Positions 2,804 to 28,651 of a DNA stretch of 39,461 bases are shown here, one piece after another (within the stretch, counting starts at the first letter, position 1; every line of letters begins with the position of its first letter). The position numbers and the translations under genes are program-made. The notes beneath the pieces were generated by a model. The model worked only from the letters and a program-made list of their open reading frames with translations, was not told the origin of the DNA and ran no database searches. The DNA is from Eubacteriales bacterium (lineage in GTDB: Bacteria > Bacillota > Clostridia > Lachnospirales > Vallitaleaceae), in NCBI GenBank assembly GCA_030535295.1, contig JAUMXK010000015.1:1-39461 (forward strand), read 5' to 3'.

Positions 2804-3382
2804 TCAAAAATGATTGGTATCTAATACATTCCCTTGTTTTGGGCGGTTTGGATTTTTAGGCGGCGTCAAATCCTTGACATCCTTATCTTCCTCACTAATT
2901 ACCTGCTTAATCTCATTTGAGTCCTTTTTTTTGGTGCTCTTTGATTTCTTCGGCACAGTCTGAGAAGTTTGTTCCTTTTCCGTCTTTTCCGCTGCTTGTT
3001 CTGCTTCTTGCTCAACATCGGTATTTGTCTTGGCATCCGCTTGTTGAGAGTCTTCCTTTCCCTCGTTTTCAGGCTCTTGACCACTTTTTGCAGATTCCTC
3101 ATCCGGAAGATTTTCCTTCCTACTTTCACTCTCTTCCTCTGCACCAGTGCTTTTCTCTTTGGAAGCCGGCTCCTGCTTTTCTTCAGCCCCATTGTCATTC
3201 CCGGACGGCTCGGCCATCTTCTCCGTCAGAAAGACCATTCCCAGCTCTTTGGCTTTTTCAATGACTTCTCTTTCCGACAAAGTTTCTTTTTCTTTTCCTC
3301 CAAATTTCAAAAACAAGGCCGCTGAAAGTAAAAATCCAAGACCGATTCCCAAAATAATGTATTTCCAATTCTCTCGTTTCAT
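2804..3382 (-). CDS. Membrane-anchored charged protein at the operon end
   Basis: This 192-residue protein is not one I can name with confidence. Residues 8-26 form a single membrane anchor after a short basic N-terminus. Next comes a small ordered-looking motif, LSEREVIEKAKELGMV (about 35-50). The rest, from about residue 60, is a Glu/Lys/Ser-rich low-complexity tail ending in PPKNPNRPKQGN. The motif resembles short segments in MltG/YceG-like proteins of Clostridia, but the lytic domain itself is absent, so an enzyme role is not supported. ATG 3382 overlaps the upstream stop (ATGA) and follows AAGGAG, so translation is coupled to the preceding SwrB-like gene. As the last gene before the terminator it is a candidate accessory flagellar membrane factor; this is inference from position. 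Confidence 0.75.
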   Translation of the reverse strand: MKRENWKYIILGIGLGFLLSAALFLKFGGKEKETLSEREVIEKAKELGMVFLTEKMAEPSGNDNGAEEKQEPASKEKSTGAEEESESRKENLPDEESAKSGQEPENEGKEDSQQADAKTNTDVEQEAEQAAEKTEKEQTSQTVPKKSKSTKKKDSNEIKQVISEEDKDVKDLTPPKNPNRPKQGNVLDTNHF

Positions 3383-3957
3383 TTCCGCTCCTTGTTTCCG
3401 AACAAGCGCAAAACCAATTCTACTTGGCCCTTGTCGATATTCAGCTCTTTGGCAATTTCTGCCTCTGATAATCCCCGCTCATGCAGGGCTTTGATTTCCT
3501 GATTGTGATTGGCTATCGGCTCTTCGCTTTCTGCTTTTTGCTTTCTCTCTTCTTTTTTCGGCATGACCGGACTCGTTCCCAAACCTTTCTGCCGAGATGA
3601 CTCAAGTCCTTTCTCAGACAACGCCTTGCCTACTGAATGATTCTCACCGGTTTTTGGCATCTCTTCCGAAACCGCCTTTGGAATGTCCCCGGCAATCTTT
3701 TTTTCCTTTTCTAAAAGCATTTCATACATCAGCATGGCTTCATTTTGCTTATCCGAGAGTTCCTTCGATAAAAACTCACCATAATCATGCATCTGCAAAA
3801 TCTTCTGATTGATTTCTTCTGCATCTGCCAGCTCGTCCTCTTTTTTTTCTCTTTCTATTTTCTTGTAGCGCTCCACAACAATCATCAAAACTGCCACAAA
3901 GCACACTATCATACCCGTAAAAATCAGAAATAGAACAATTTTTTCATTGGATGACAT
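3379..3957 (-). CDS. SwrB-like / DUF6115-type membrane-anchored protein
   Basis: The 192-residue product has an N-terminal membrane helix (about residues 8-29), then a long charged coiled-coil region, a Lys/Glu-rich linker, and a C-terminal segment that reads as a helix-turn-helix: IKALHERGLSEAEIAKELN then IDKGQVELVLRL. This architecture and its place just after sigD and fapA match SwrB of B. subtilis, a membrane protein at the end of the fla/che operon that activates flagellar type III secretion and swarming. DUF6115 is the family label I associate with such clostridial proteins. The orthology is inferred from architecture and synteny, not from clear sequence identity. It starts at ATG 3957 with a weak AGGGTAAG site. 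The 3' end overlaps the next gene by four bases. Confidence 0.8.
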   Translation of the reverse strand: MSSNEKIVLFLIFTGMIVCFVAVLMIVVERYKKIEREKKEDELADAEEINQKILQMHDYGEFLSKELSDKQNEAMLMYEMLLEKEKKIAGDIPKAVSEEMPKTGENHSVGKALSEKGLESSRQKGLGTSPVMPKKEERKQKAESEEPIANHNQEIKALHERGLSEAEIAKELNIDKGQVELVLRLFGNKERK

Positions 3958-5713: not shown

Positions 5714-6481
5714 CTATATATATGCCAATAACTCTACATCTTCTCCCAAGAAACGCTTCATCTTACGCAATGATTTGGTGTGAAGTTGCGAAACCCTCGA
5801 CTCGGAAACGCCGAGCACCAGACTGATTTCCTTCAAAGTCAATTCATCGTAGTAGTACAGGGAAATCACTTTCTGCTCTTTTTCTGTCAAAGTTTCCAAG
5901 GCAGAAATAAGCTGTGCTTTGGTTTCTTCTCTGCCCATCCGGTCAAATGGCTGATCAAATCTTTTGTATTCTAAACTTTGCACCGACATTTCACCGTTTT
6001 GCTCAATATGTTCATCCAGAGAAGATAAGTGCAATGCCTTGGTTTGGTTCTCCCATCGATAGTATTCATCCACAGAGATATTCAATTCCTGTGCAATCAA
6101 TTCATCATAATTTTCGCTGTTTTCATCCACTTCCAGCTTTTGTACGGCAGCATCCAACATTCTTTTCTTTTTTCTGAGAGAACGAGGAATCCAGTCCATT
6201 CGCCTGATATTGTCTAAAATTTCTCCACGAATACGGAGAGAAGCATAAGTCTCAAATTTGTTGCCTTTGGAATAATCAAATTTATCAATTGCGTCAATCA
6301 ACCCAAAAACTCCATAGCCAACCAAATCATCAAAATCCACATTATTCCCCAAATACATATTCAGTCTGCCTGCAATGTATTTTACCAGCTGAGAATATTC
6401 GATGATTAATTTCTCTTTTAACTTTTCATCATGTGTTTTACTGTATTCTTCCCATAAGGCATTTTGTTGTACTAATTCCAT
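5714..6481 (-). CDS. sigD: RNA polymerase sigma factor SigD/FliA (sigma-28)
   Basis: This 255-residue sigma-70 family member lacks region 1.1, as sigma-28 factors do. Region 2 is clear (VGYGVFGLIDAIDKFDYSKG, then KFETYASLRIRGEILDNIR, the core-binding and -10 recognition helices), followed by RRMDWIPRSLRKK of region 3. Region 4 ends with LTLKEISLVLGVSESRVSQ, the -35-reading helix-turn-helix. It should direct late flagellar genes such as flagellin and receptors. I place the start at ATG 6481, nine bases after GGGAAG, instead of GTG 6487, which is too close to that site. Being near the 3' end of a 34-kb operon makes its level sensitive to whether polymerase reaches the end, as known for B. subtilis sigD. 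The anti-sigma factor FlgM is not in the window. Confidence 0.96.
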   Translation of the reverse strand: MELVQQNALWEEYSKTHDEKLKEKLIIEYSQLVKYIAGRLNMYLGNNVDFDDLVGYGVFGLIDAIDKFDYSKGNKFETYASLRIRGEILDNIRRMDWIPRSLRKKKRMLDAAVQKLEVDENSENYDELIAQELNISVDEYYRWENQTKALHLSSLDEHIEQNGEMSVQSLEYKRFDQPFDRMGREETKAQLISALETLTEKEQKVISLYYYDELTLKEISLVLGVSESRVSQLHTKSLRKMKRFLGEDVELLAYI

Positions 6482-6549
6482 ACTCACTCACTTCCCATCT
6501 GCTCGTGAAATTCTTTCGTTATCCTACATCTTTCACGTAATTATTTCCA

Positions 6550-22840: not shown

Positions 22841-23719
22841 TTATTTAATATCTCTTTCCTCTAATACTTTTTCTTCCGCTCGAAGCAAAAGCTTAATTTC
22901 CACTCGGCGATTGTGCGCCCTTCCCTCCGGAGTGGCATTGGTATCAATCGGGTGAAACTCCCCATATCCCGTACTGGAAACTTTTTGTGGAATAAAACCA
23001 TGCTGATTGACCAATTCTTCTTCTACCGCAATCGCTCTGGCCGCTGATAAATAGCGGTTACTCTTGTAAAAACCGTTGTTAATCGGACGATTGTCGGTAT
23101 GCCCTTCGACCTGAATATCATAGCTGTTGTATTGGGATTCCTTCAACACTTCGGAAATGACTCCGATAGCAGCCACGGCATCTTCTTTTAAAATCGCCAT
23201 ACCGCTGTCAAATAAATATTCCCCTCGCAAAGTCAGCTTGACATAGTTCGGAGTATAGGAAACTTCAATCTCGGCATTGAGCAAATCATTGTTGATTTCA
23301 TTCTGCACTTCTTCCTGAATGGTTTCCGCAATTTTCTTTGCTTCTTTGAGTTTTTTCATCTCTTCCCGTTCAGATTCTTCGAGTTCTTCCAAGTCTTCCG
23401 TTTCCATATTATAATGCTCGGTATTCAGTGCATTTTCACCGCCGCTGATTACCGCATTGATATTTTCTAATTGTACGGTTCCGTTGATGATTAAATCACC
23501 ACCGGTAATGGCTTCTCCTCCCGGCATGAAATCGGTCATATATTCCCCTTGACCGGTAAAATATTCCATTACCTTCTGAAATTTTTCCTGGTTGATGCTG
23601 GACATGGAAAACAATAGCACAAAAAAGCACAAGAGCAAGGTAACCATATCTCCATACGTTGCCATCCATGCCGGAGCTCCGCTCCCGCCGCCATCACCTT
23701 GTTGCTTCCTCTTTGCCAT
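22841..23719 (-). CDS. motB: Flagellar motor stator protein MotB
   Basis: MotB anchors the stator to peptidoglycan and carries the ion-binding aspartate. The 292-residue protein has a short basic Gly-rich N-terminus, one membrane helix at about residues 20-42, and the channel residue Asp24 in ATYGDMVTLLLCF. A long Glu/Lys-rich segment (about 100-150) precedes the OmpA-like domain, with VEGHTDNRPIN, RYLSAARA and GYGEFHPIDTN-RRVEI. The ion type, H+ or Na+, cannot be decided from these residues. It starts two bases after motA ends; the two form the motor unit. Confidence 0.97.
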   Translation of the reverse strand: MAKRKQQGDGGGSGAPAWMATYGDMVTLLLCFFVLLFSMSSINQEKFQKVMEYFTGQGEYMTDFMPGGEAITGGDLIINGTVQLENINAVISGGENALNTEHYNMETEDLEELEESEREEMKKLKEAKKIAETIQEEVQNEINNDLLNAEIEVSYTPNYVKLTLRGEYLFDSGMAILKEDAVAAIGVISEVLKESQYNSYDIQVEGHTDNRPINNGFYKSNRYLSAARAIAVEEELVNQHGFIPQKVSSTGYGEFHPIDTNATPEGRAHNRRVEIKLLLRAEEKVLEERDIK

Positions 23720-23721
23720 CT

Positions 23722-24525
23722 CTATTCACCTGCCTCTGCATTATTATCCTGAGCAGCCATTTGTGATTGCATCTTTGGTGATAAGAAGGCTTTGAGCTTT
23801 TCTTCAATAACACGAGGGTTTTCACCGGCTTGAATGGAAAGAAGACCTTCTACCATAACCTCCTTGACCATCATTTCTTCCGTGGAACGAATCTTCAGCT
23901 TAGAAGCAAATGGAATCGCAATAAAGTTTGCCAAAATAGAGCCGTACAAAGTGGTAATCAAGGCAACCGCCATCGCAGGTCCGATAGCCGAAGAATCTCC
24001 GCCTACCGCCTTCAACATATTTACAAGACCAATTAAGGTACCAATCATACCCCAAGCCGGTCCGAGTTCACCGATTTTCGCCCAAAATGCTTGAACGGAA
24101 CTATGTCTTTCTTCAATATAAATAATTTCCGTTTCCAAAATATTCCGAACCAGTTCCGGATCGGTTCCATCTACGATTAACAGGATGCCCTTTTTCAAAA
24201 ACGCATCATTGACGGAATTGGCCGCTTCTTCCAATGCCAAAAGTCCCTCTTTCCGAGCGATGTTCGAAAGCTGAATAATATCCTGAATCATCTTTCCTTC
24301 ATTGTTTTTAATATCCTTAAAAATCAGGGTTGCTCCCTTTAAGCCGTTCATAAACTTATTCATCGGGAATGTGATTAAAACGGATGCCATGGTACCGCCT
24401 AATACAATCATTACCGAAGCCGGATCGCCAAAGTTTGCAAGCGAGCTGACACCACCGTTTAAAATGATGGATGCCAAGAAAAAGAATATTCCCAATATCA
24501 ATCCAATAATTGATGCTAAATCCAC
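23722..24525 (-). CDS. motA: Flagellar motor stator protein MotA
   Basis: MotA forms the five-fold stator ring that pushes FliG. The 267-residue protein has four membrane helices: two near the N-terminus and two around 145-200 that contain GELGPAWGMIGTLIGLVNML and the TTLYGSILAN segment with the conserved channel prolines. A cytoplasmic loop of about 90 residues carries the charged torque helix. I choose GTG 24525 as start because GAGGTGG lies five bases before it and MDLASIIGLILGI is the standard MotA N-terminus. An earlier in-frame GTG at 24534 lies within that site. It is the first of motA-motB behind flbD, downstream of an internal promoter. Confidence 0.96.
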   Translation of the reverse strand: MDLASIIGLILGIFFFLASIILNGGVSSLANFGDPASVMIVLGGTMASVLITFPMNKFMNGLKGATLIFKDIKNNEGKMIQDIIQLSNIARKEGLLALEEAANSVNDAFLKKGILLIVDGTDPELVRNILETEIIYIEERHSSVQAFWAKIGELGPAWGMIGTLIGLVNMLKAVGGDSSAIGPAMAVALITTLYGSILANFIAIPFASKLKIRSTEEMMVKEVMVEGLLSIQAGENPRVIEEKLKAFLSPKMQSQMAAQDNNAEAGE

Positions 24526-24551
24526 AATTTCCACCTCGTCAATTTCAATAC

Positions 24552-24737
24552 CTACTTTTGATAGATTGCTCTCTTAAACTCATATATTTTTTGATACAAC
24601 TCTTCTTTCGTTTCCCTTACTATTATCTTCTTCCCCGTTGTCAATGTAATAATAGTATCCGGTGTTTCTTCGATCAATTCTATCAAGTCTTCATTGAGCA
24701 AAAGTTCCAGATTATTTAATTTGGTGATGTATATCAT
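24552..24737 (-). CDS. flbD: FlbD/SwrD-type small flagellar protein
   Basis: The 61-residue protein matches the FlbD/YlzI (SwrD) family: MIYITKLNNLELLLNEDLIE, then PDTIITLTTGKKIIVRE, a small beta-rich fold ending in a helix EELYQKIYEFKRA. In B. subtilis, SwrD raises motor torque and swarming, acting through stator function. Here it sits immediately before motA-motB, which strengthens that link. The start is ATG 24737, five bases after AAAGGAG; GTG 24743 overlaps that site. It is the first gene downstream of an internal sigma-A-like promoter at 24803-24831. The family call is firm; the torque role is inference from the homologue. Confidence 0.9.
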   Translation of the reverse strand: MIYITKLNNLELLLNEDLIELIEETPDTIITLTTGKKIIVRETKEELYQKIYEFKRAIYQK

Positions 24738-24802
24738 CTGCACTCCTTTATCTCGAAAACCTTTCCAATACAGCCCTTTATAGTAGCTGCACAGCTGAAT
24801 TA

Positions 24803-24831
24803 ATTATAGCAATTTTATAGAAAAAAGTAAA
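24803..24831 (-). promoter_or_regulatory. Internal sigma-A-type promoter upstream of flbD-motA-motB
   Basis: On the minus strand TTTACT (24831-24826) and a perfect TATAAT (24808-24803) are 17 bases apart. TG at the right place gives an extended -10 (TGcTATAAT). It lies in the 163-base gap between flgE and flbD, just beyond a large hairpin. It should give expression of stator and downstream genes separate from the codY-proximal promoter. Confidence 0.72.
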
Positions 24832-24845
24832 GTCCAAGTTCAGTA

Positions 24846-24889
24846 AAGGAAAGCCTATACAGCTTTATTCTCTGTGCTAGGCTCTCCTT
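24846..24889 (-). terminator. Large hairpin after flgE, partial terminator or RNA-stabilising end
   Basis: TAGGCTCTCCTT (24878-24889) pairs with AAGGAAAGCCTA (24846-24857) through 12 pairs, one of them G-U. Inside it, ACAG/CTGT can extend the stem. It starts 11 bases after the flgE stop. The trailing U-run on the minus strand is short (TTTAC), so termination may be incomplete. Confidence 0.6.
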
Positions 24890-24900
24890 AGATTACCGCC

Positions 24901-26211
24901 CTATCTCTTTAAGTTTACCAATTCCTGTAATATTTCATCCGAAGTTGTGATTACTCTGGAGTTCGCTTGAAATCCTCTTTGAGTTGTAATCATTTCGGTA
25001 AATTCCAGGGATAAATCTACATTACTCATTTCCAATACACCGGAGTTGATGGTGGATCCGATAGAAGTCACATCCTTACCGATACCGTTGAATTCTCCGG
25101 AGTTCATGGTTGTTCCGAATAAGTTGTTGCCTTCTTTTTGCAAACCGGCCGGATTGTCGAAATCCGCAATTACGACCTGACCCAGCAATTTACTGTCTCC
25201 ATTGGAATACTTTGCAAGGATTCTTCCATCACCACCGATTTGAAATCCGGACATTTCCCCTGCCGCGTTACCGGCTCCGATTTTGTCCTTGTCACCACGC
25301 ATTCCTTGAATGGTGGTATTTCCCGAAAACTGGGTTATTTTTGAGAAATCTATTTTCATGTCACTGATTTTTGATTTGAAGTTGGTGTCACCACCGGTCA
25401 GGGTAAAGACCGCTGCCGCAGGATTATCAATGGTACCTGCATCATTGAAGGTAATTACCACAGGATTGGTGTCCGGTGCCATAGCAGGAGTGGTTGTCAC
25501 GACATTGGAGTTTTGGTCGGTCACTTTTTCCAGGCTCAATTCGTAGCTGCCCGGATTTCCATTGGCTTTTTTCATACGAAATTGTGCCGTGTAAGGATAC
25601 CCCTGGCTGTCATAGAAGTTGAAGGTAATCGGAACACCGGCCTCTGTCGGTGCTACTTGTGAATCATTTTGATTGATGTTTCCGGTCAGCATGCCTTGGG
25701 TCGTTGCCTGTGGCAAGCTGTACATATTTTCCGGAGACATTACCTTCAGCGGAGTCACTTCCGCTTTTTGAATTTCATTCGGTTTGTTCGGATCCGGTTG
25801 CCAACCCATGACATACATACCGGACGGATTGACCAAATTGCCGGCTACGTCTACACGGAAAGCACCGGCTCTGGTAAACTTCAAACCCTCAGCATTTTTT
25901 ACGATAAAAAATCCGTCTCCTTCAATCTTTAAGTCCGTAATCAGGTCGGTTCTTTGTGCCGCTCCTTCATTCATATTGATATCAATTGTGTTTACATTGG
26001 CACCCAAGCCGATTTGCATCGGGTTACGACCGCCTAAGTTCGGTGTCGGTCCGGAAGCATTCTGCAAATTTTGGCTGAATACTTCGTTGAACAAGGTACG
26101 GCTGGCTTTAAAGCCTGCTGTATTCACGTTTGAAATGTTGTTACCTATTACGTCCATCTTCGTTTGATGAACTCTCAATCCGGATACACCGGAATACATT
26201 GAACGCATCAT
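24901..26211 (-). CDS. flgE: Flagellar hook protein FlgE
   Basis: FlgE polymerises into the hook. The 436-residue protein has the rod/hook N-terminal motif (MMRSMYSGVSGLRVHQ and VIGNNISNVNTAGFK) and the matching C-terminal motif (NVDLSLEFTEMITTQRGFQANSR, then TTSDEILQELVNLKR), which form the coiled core. The 300-residue Gly/Asn/Thr-rich middle holds the surface domains. The length fits a hook protein and exceeds the roughly 260 residues of the distal rod protein FlgG. ATG 26211 follows AAAGGAGG by nine bases. It follows flgD and the TIGR02530-type gene, as expected for the hook set. Confidence 0.95.
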   Translation of the reverse strand: MMRSMYSGVSGLRVHQTKMDVIGNNISNVNTAGFKASRTLFNEVFSQNLQNASGPTPNLGGRNPMQIGLGANVNTIDINMNEGAAQRTDLITDLKIEGDGFFIVKNAEGLKFTRAGAFRVDVAGNLVNPSGMYVMGWQPDPNKPNEIQKAEVTPLKVMSPENMYSLPQATTQGMLTGNINQNDSQVAPTEAGVPITFNFYDSQGYPYTAQFRMKKANGNPGSYELSLEKVTDQNSNVVTTTPAMAPDTNPVVITFNDAGTIDNPAAAVFTLTGGDTNFKSKISDMKIDFSKITQFSGNTTIQGMRGDKDKIGAGNAAGEMSGFQIGGDGRILAKYSNGDSKLLGQVVIADFDNPAGLQKEGNNLFGTTMNSGEFNGIGKDVTSIGSTINSGVLEMSNVDLSLEFTEMITTQRGFQANSRVITTSDEILQELVNLKR

Positions 26212-28577: not shown

Positions 28578-28651
28578 TTTATCCTCCTTTCGTCGATTTT
28601 TTGTGAGGTTTTCCCCACCCTATCTATATCAAGAGACTTGCTCTTAATATC

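Follow-up and report, generated by a model that had tools for sequence, protein, structure and literature searches.

A stem-loop kept in place behind the flagellar hook gene flgE in Clostridia, a candidate stabiliser of hook mRNA

Introduction

In C. cellulolyticum, highly transcribed genes frequently have a stem-loop at their 3' end, and the genes whose transcripts are processed tend to code for components of protein complexes, according to the sections of Xu et al. 2015 used here (PMC4423207). For three inserted segments described in the same sections, the level of the upstream reporter tracked the stability of the stem-loop and the downstream level was unchanged; a U run followed 5 of 33 such stem-loops (PMC4423207). 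SLOFE lists one flagellar operon (1018) among the predicted selective RNA processing and stabilization (SRPS) operons of C. cellulolyticum, and the gene is not named in the portion of that source cited here (PMC8219983). By analogy, and as far as the cited sections describe it, this stem-loop stabilisation (PMC4423207) is the closest tested mechanism for the element that we report, a hairpin behind the flagellar hook gene flgE. Our literature searches, which covered open-licence papers, recognised no paper on a hairpin at this place, and PMC10667835 gave no matches to flagellar words.

How can one very long flagellar operon yield parts in very different numbers? The hook of one flagellum is built from about 130 subunits. 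A covarying hairpin that is fixed in position within such an operon offers one testable answer.

Results

The flgE-flbD spacer within the flagellar gene run

The window, by which we mean the whole stretch of 39,461 nucleotides that was analysed, belongs to a genome of 2.46 Mb in 142 contigs with a completeness of 89.6%, whose nearest named relative found was Clostridiales bacterium COT-073. Its minus strand holds topA, codY, flagellar genes, chemotaxis genes, sigD, FapA and DUF6115, and rpsB and tsf oppose this run of genes at its end. The names flgB to fliJ, fliM and fliO to flhA follow operon order and are what we take these genes to be. Judged by strand and spacing, the genes at the flgE-flbD junction would belong to one operon; the spacer between the end of flgE (24901) and the start of flbD (24737) measures ~163-164 nt and contains the features collected in Table 1. 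Downstream of its promoter-like site come flbD, motA, motB and fliL and, farther on, sigD, FapA and DUF6115.

The two ends of the run have features of their own. flgB lies directly downstream of codY, whose final part, immediately ahead of flgB, carries a candidate promoter for the flagellar genes, TTGAGA-16-CATAAT with an extended -10 (35952-35925, minus). Behind FapA, at the end of the flagellar run, positions 2804-3957 encode the DUF6115 protein and one protein with no Pfam match. A terminator-like hairpin followed by CTTTTTTATT (2792-2769, minus) lies 3' of the last gene of the run, facing tsf.

Table 1. Coordinates, in the window, of the spacer elements and of the genes discussed
Feature	Position	Strand	Basis
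Stem-loop, 12 bp plus inner 4-bp helix; proposed 3' stabiliser of hook mRNA	24846..24889	minus	folding; same place in relatives
flgE, hook protein gene, upstream of hairpin	24901..26211	minus	Pfam Flg_bbr_C, LlgE_F_G_D1, Flg_bb_rod, FlgE_D2
Sigma-A-type promoter-like site, TTTACT-17-TATAAT, extended -10 (TGC)	24803..24831	minus	sequence, genus comparison
Expected transcription start, A, 7 nt below the -10 hexamer	24796	minus	inferred from spacing only
Leader with AAAGGAG ribosome-binding site before flbD	24738..24795	minus	sequence
flbD, 61 aa	24552..24737	minus	Pfam PF06289, E 2.4e-24
motA, stator	23722..24534	minus	Pfam MotA_ExbB
motB, stator	22841..23719	minus	Pfam MotB_plug, OmpA
sigD, sigma factor, near the end of the promoter-reachable gene run	5714..6487	minus	Pfam Sigma70_r2, Sigma70_r4

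A stable hairpin with no U tract behind flgE

The original prediction had placed a 12-bp hairpin after flgE, and it is indeed there. It begins 11 nt past the flgE stop codon, and its arms, AAGGAGAGCCTA (24889-24878, minus) and TAGGCTTTCCTT (24857-24846), form 12 bp including one G-U pair. Folding of the 71 nt around it gave -25.2 kcal/mol and a z-score of -3.7, a value that none of 200 shuffles equalled. The hairpin was less extreme when scored inside the whole spacer (z -2.3, 1 of 60 shuffles as good; z -2.8 in a second run), and the fold of the entire spacer (~163-164 nt) reached z -1.95, with 10 of 200 shuffles as good.

What kind of element could this be? Rfam returned no match at the gathering cut-off anywhere in the window and none at E <= 1 within 24700-24960; with no covariance-model match, we rejected an Rfam family or riboswitch identity. 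An intrinsic terminator has a run of U after its stem, whereas here UUUACUGAAC comes next and a U tract is absent. We rejected an intrinsic terminator on this ground, and a clean stop of transcription at the hairpin is therefore unlikely. The hairpin has sequence features of an SRPS element. It is stable, it lies at the 3' end of flgE in a gap inside the presumed operon, and no poly(U) comes behind it: under the SLOFE rule (at most 5 U in 10 nt, with no run longer than 3) it is classed as a stabiliser. Its free energy in the spacer run, -23.9 kcal/mol, lies inside the range of -6.6 to -31.8 given for SRPS stem-loops in the cited sections of PMC4423207.

The hairpin is kept at the flgE end across the class

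We then asked how widely the hairpin occurs. A search for flbD gave a match in 205 of 392 genomes of the order and in 83 of 196 genomes of the class (82 above the cut-off), and from these matches we examined 142 loci of the order (some genomes twice; four are named contigs) and 49 of the class. These loci are the best-scoring matches per search together with hand-picked genomes (many genera, long contigs) and not a random sample. At every locus examined, flgE and flbD had the same orientation with flgE upstream, at a distance of at most 718 nt in the order and 511 nt in the class. Spacers were clipped at 450 nt, and those shorter than 30 nt were dropped before z-scores were counted; this removed 12 of the 113 unique order spacers, 2 of the 49 class spacers and 5 of the 31 spacers of family f6, described below.

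When the order and class samples are pooled, 147 unique flgE-flbD spacers reach 30 nt, and 124 of them have a significant hairpin (z < -2). Each score is based on 60 shuffles, and single scores vary between runs (-2.3 and -2.8 for the window). The order sample contributed 85 of 101 unique spacers (median z -3.7; 82 of 98 when three named-contig spacers are left out) and the class sample 40 of 47 (median -3.6). One spacer is common to both (L039 = L175), which gives the 147; counted over the 148 spacers of the two samples, 23 miss the threshold. The hairpin core begins a median of 16 nt past the flgE stop and ends a median of 36 nt before flbD. Families differ in the sequence of the stem but share its position throughout the class. 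Loci from beyond the class gave a weaker signal, with z < -2 at 13 of 27 linked loci and a median of -1.9 (30 loci taken, three dropped where the FlgE end was not found); this sample repeats two spacers (L193 = L194, L214 = L221), as de-duplication was applied to the order sample only. Several of its sub-threshold spacers are GC-rich stems that shuffles reproduce.

The hairpin is not simply a general property of gaps. In 41 long operons (40 relatives plus the window), in which flagellar genes of the relatives were labelled by likeness to the proteins of the window, z < -2 was reached at flgE-flbD in 30 of the 37 gaps that measure 30 nt or more, compared to 29 of 291 other gaps (Fisher P = 1e-19). 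Restricting the comparison to gaps of 60-250 nt gave 25 of 30 versus 20 of 132. The control junctions ylx-flgE, flbD-motA and fliL-fliM scored 1 of 36, 0 of 17 and 1 of 20, respectively. A stem of at least 9 bp was found in 172 of 198 unique spacers, compared to 60 of 198 shuffled spacers and 61 of 291 control gaps. The gap before fliK was the second most structured among often-seen junctions (9 of 31 with z < -2); the corresponding gap of the window (28578-28651) holds no hairpin (z -0.6).

Quantification of base changes revealed that the letters of the hairpin change and the pairing is kept, with covarying stems in the two groups tested. Both sides had changed in 6 of 17 pairs among seven genomes of family f24 and in 4 of 13 pairs among six genomes of genus g3, in a test that favours pairing, as the stem arms were picked after the hairpins had been seen. 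When the arms were slid against each other, they paired in at most 57% of cells, compared to 95-96% for the true arms; in genus g3, one slid version also gave 3 double changes.

The hairpin follows flgE where flbD is distant or missing, and cheY in one family

Does the hairpin belong to the end of flgE or to the beginning of flbD? For family f6 we searched 120 genomes, found a flgE match in 67 and took 40. In 31 of these, flbD is next after flgE, and 21 of the 26 gaps of at least 30 nt had z < -2. In the other nine, motA is the next gene found, and eight had z < -2, the ninth reaching -1.9. In three cases flbD lies farther off, at 560, 831 and 1047 nt; their hairpins, all of them significant, begin 95, 3 and 2 nt past flgE, respectively, and lie within 156 nt behind it. 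The hairpin thus persists without an adjacent flbD and therefore belongs to the end of flgE. A 5' element of flbD was rejected, since the hairpin remains where flbD is missing.

Family f2 shows a different arrangement. Most of its genomes seen have flgE-flbD gaps of 6-33 nt with no hairpin, and 8 of the 12 that lack the flgE hairpin and have cheY in view carry a strong hairpin behind cheY (L262-L266, L093, L094, L118), with the stem core ATTAGTGG/CCACTAAT in seven of the eight. The other four have no intergenic cheY hairpin; in these, cheY abuts the next gene or almost does so, and in two of them a weak signal (z -2.2 and -2.1) falls in the 150 nt past cheY, inside the next gene. Three members of the family in which the flgE hairpin is strong and cheY can be seen (L269, L271 and L274, the spacer of the last in L076) have none behind cheY, and L272, with a weak flgE hairpin, has none there either. 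L273, which is congeneric with three of the cheY-hairpin genomes, has the flgE hairpin, and its cheY lies outside the view. CheY, too, is a protein required in high copy number. ATTAGTGG...CCACTAAT is common to the cheY hairpins of family f2 and the flgE hairpins of genus g3. Their longest shared stretch measures 10 nt, and 70 of 200 shuffled sets contain one as long, so the likeness does not demonstrate common descent.

A promoter-like site behind the hairpin is kept within the genus

The other element named in the original prediction, a promoter with a perfect extended -10 after the hairpin, is present as a promoter-like site. The hexamer TATAAT (24808-24803) matches at 6 of 6 positions and is preceded by TGC (TG at 24811-24810), and 17 nt upstream the -35 element TTTACT (24831-24826) matches at 4 of 6. 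The site thus has the extended -10 form for sigma-A, TGnTATAAT with a -35 element 16-18 nt upstream, albeit with a -35 of only 4 of 6. TTKACW-N13-15-TGNTATAAT, a pattern for promoters of this strength, occurs at 15 sites in the 2.46-Mb genome and the reversed control pattern at none.

The three species of the genus that were compared (this one and two others) all have the hairpin and the promoter-like site at flgE-flbD, with hairpin z-scores of -2.7 to -3.1 in one run, the window scoring -2.3 in another. The layout of the promoter, with its 17-nt spacer, is identical in the three, and the leader between it and flbD varies in length and sequence; the promoter stands out as kept because the leader differs. 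When up to 3 mismatches are allowed, a pattern made from the three members hits each of their genomes exactly once, at the flgE-flbD junction. Among the 22 fliF-to-flhA gaps listed for all three species, a small control in which 5 gaps reach 30 nt in every species, hairpin and promoter occur together only at flgE-flbD, where the promoter score is 12 against a best of 9 at the other junctions. In this genus, the promoter probably functions.

In most relatives the hairpin has no strong promoter behind it. Among 146 unique spacers of at least 40 nt, 16 had a promoter score that no more than 1 of 100 shuffles could match, and TGNTATAAT was present in 14 of 147 compared to 1.5 expected, the three genus members being included in both counts. 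In gaps of at least 100 nt, a score of at least 12 was reached by 6 of 26 flgE-flbD gaps (three of them from the genus) versus 2 of 81 others. Of 14 spacers of at least 130 nt with such a score, 13 had a hairpin with z < -2 and, again in 13, the promoter came after the hairpin. The two flgE-motA spacers scored (of nine) had no significant promoter. Because its spread is patchy, the promoter would be an addition in some lineages and not ancestral. Strong promoter-like sites at flgE-flbD were also seen in L049, L126, L127, L128 and L044 (family f20) and in L064, L121, L122 and L142 (family f12), three of them beginning with TTGACTTTTT, which suggests that such promoters are kept within these two families too. 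For C. difficile, additional transcription start sites are named for CD0241, fliQ and flgG, and the main text of the source, as far as it is cited here, mentions neither flbD nor motA (PMC7438776).

Most hairpins lack a terminator-like U tail

We applied the U-tail rules of SLOFE, as we coded them from the cited portion of the paper (PMC8219983), to 125 hairpins. Measured from the outermost G-C pair, 96 fell in the stabiliser class, 23 in the mixed class and 6 in the terminator class; with the end of the whole fold as the starting point, the numbers were 102, 21 and 2. The hairpin of the window was a stabiliser by both measuring points. U was mildly enriched after the hairpins (3.35 of 8 nt versus a background of 2.52), and 33 of the 125 had at least 4 U in the first 6 nt, so partial termination is likely in some species. 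Together, the usual lack of a U tract and the scarcity of strong promoters in relatives make it more likely that the hairpin marks a boundary of mRNA stability rather than of transcription.

Discussion

We favour, with a probability of about 0.58, the reading that the hairpin is an SRPS-type stabiliser at the hook gene which gives more hook than motor mRNA. The long flagellar transcript would be cut in the AU-rich stretch behind the hairpin, and the hairpin would then block 3'-to-5' exonucleases. The segment ending in flgE may thereby outlive the segment that starts with flbD and motA, and the hook would get more message than the stators and the export parts. In this genus, the extended -10 sigma-A promoter could add a second dose of transcription for flbD, motAB, the switch, export, chemotaxis and sigD; for flbD, motAB and the genes down to sigD, it would supplement read-through, not replace it.

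Could the hairpin instead act on transcription itself? As a partial terminator, or attenuator, it would end a share of transcripts behind flgE, though it has no good U tract, and lower the genes downstream, with the promoter of this genus making good the loss. In B. subtilis, NusG and NusA aid terminators with weak hairpins, as described in the part of that work drawn on here, and the 33 U-rich tails fit such a role; we nevertheless consider attenuation, the main rival, the less likely reading, as 96 of the 125 hairpins, the one in the window included, class as stabilisers by their tails, and most relatives that carry the hairpin lack the strong promoter behind it. The original prediction went further, to a terminating hairpin and a promoter that starts a separate, differently regulated transcript for power and chemotaxis. 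What holds of it is that the promoter could reach sigD and is kept in the genus; the clean split between torque, switch and sigD genes and the genes before them does not follow from a hairpin with no U tract. The order of the two elements, hairpin before promoter in nearly all long, high-scoring spacers, is what such a transcript would call for. Against it, most species have the hairpin but no strong promoter, and a search that covered the promoters identified no regulator site, which leaves this reading improbable.

Dispersed palindromic (REP-like) repeats often sit behind genes, and the hairpin might be one that was inserted by chance. A 421-nt query around it has, however, one match in its own genome at E <= 0.001, and the ATTAGTGG...CCACTAAT motif of two other groups occurs once each in 6 of 10 genomes, always in the flagellar operon, and in none of the other four. 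The position is kept through the class and the sequence is not. We rejected a dispersed repeat on the single match and the confinement of the motif, and regard a chance insertion as barely credible.

If the hairpin is a stabiliser of hook mRNA, a broader possibility can be put forward tentatively, as a conjecture that we hold with some reserve. The stem-loop may be a conserved device of flagellar stoichiometry in Clostridia, perhaps in all flagellated Bacillota with this operon, that sets the ratio of hook to motor at the RNA level. It could stand at another gene in high demand (cheY, in one family) where the copy at the hook gene is missing, and the promoter behind it may further split structure from power in several lineages. 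The cheY placement is a natural experiment, and the hairpin is a ready spot at which to remove or move an element, with hook length, stator number and sigD output as readouts.

Three known systems frame this comparison. Like an intrinsic (Rho-independent) terminator, the element is a GC-containing hairpin past a stop codon; unlike one, it has no U tract, and genes of the same run continue downstream. The motility operon of B. subtilis is similarly long and ends near sigD, and its distal genes get less transcript, which an internal promoter would raise. Its internal promoters lie elsewhere, whereas the promoter described here is placed between flgE and flbD and occurs in some lineages only. The nearest likeness is to SRPS in the cellulosome operon of C. 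cellulolyticum, where a 3'-end stem-loop also lies within an operon of many genes that code for a large protein complex and the stem-loops mostly have no U run and a similar free energy. The difference is that no flagellar gene is named in the cited portions of that work, and that here the stem-loop is set at flgE and can be traced through a class.
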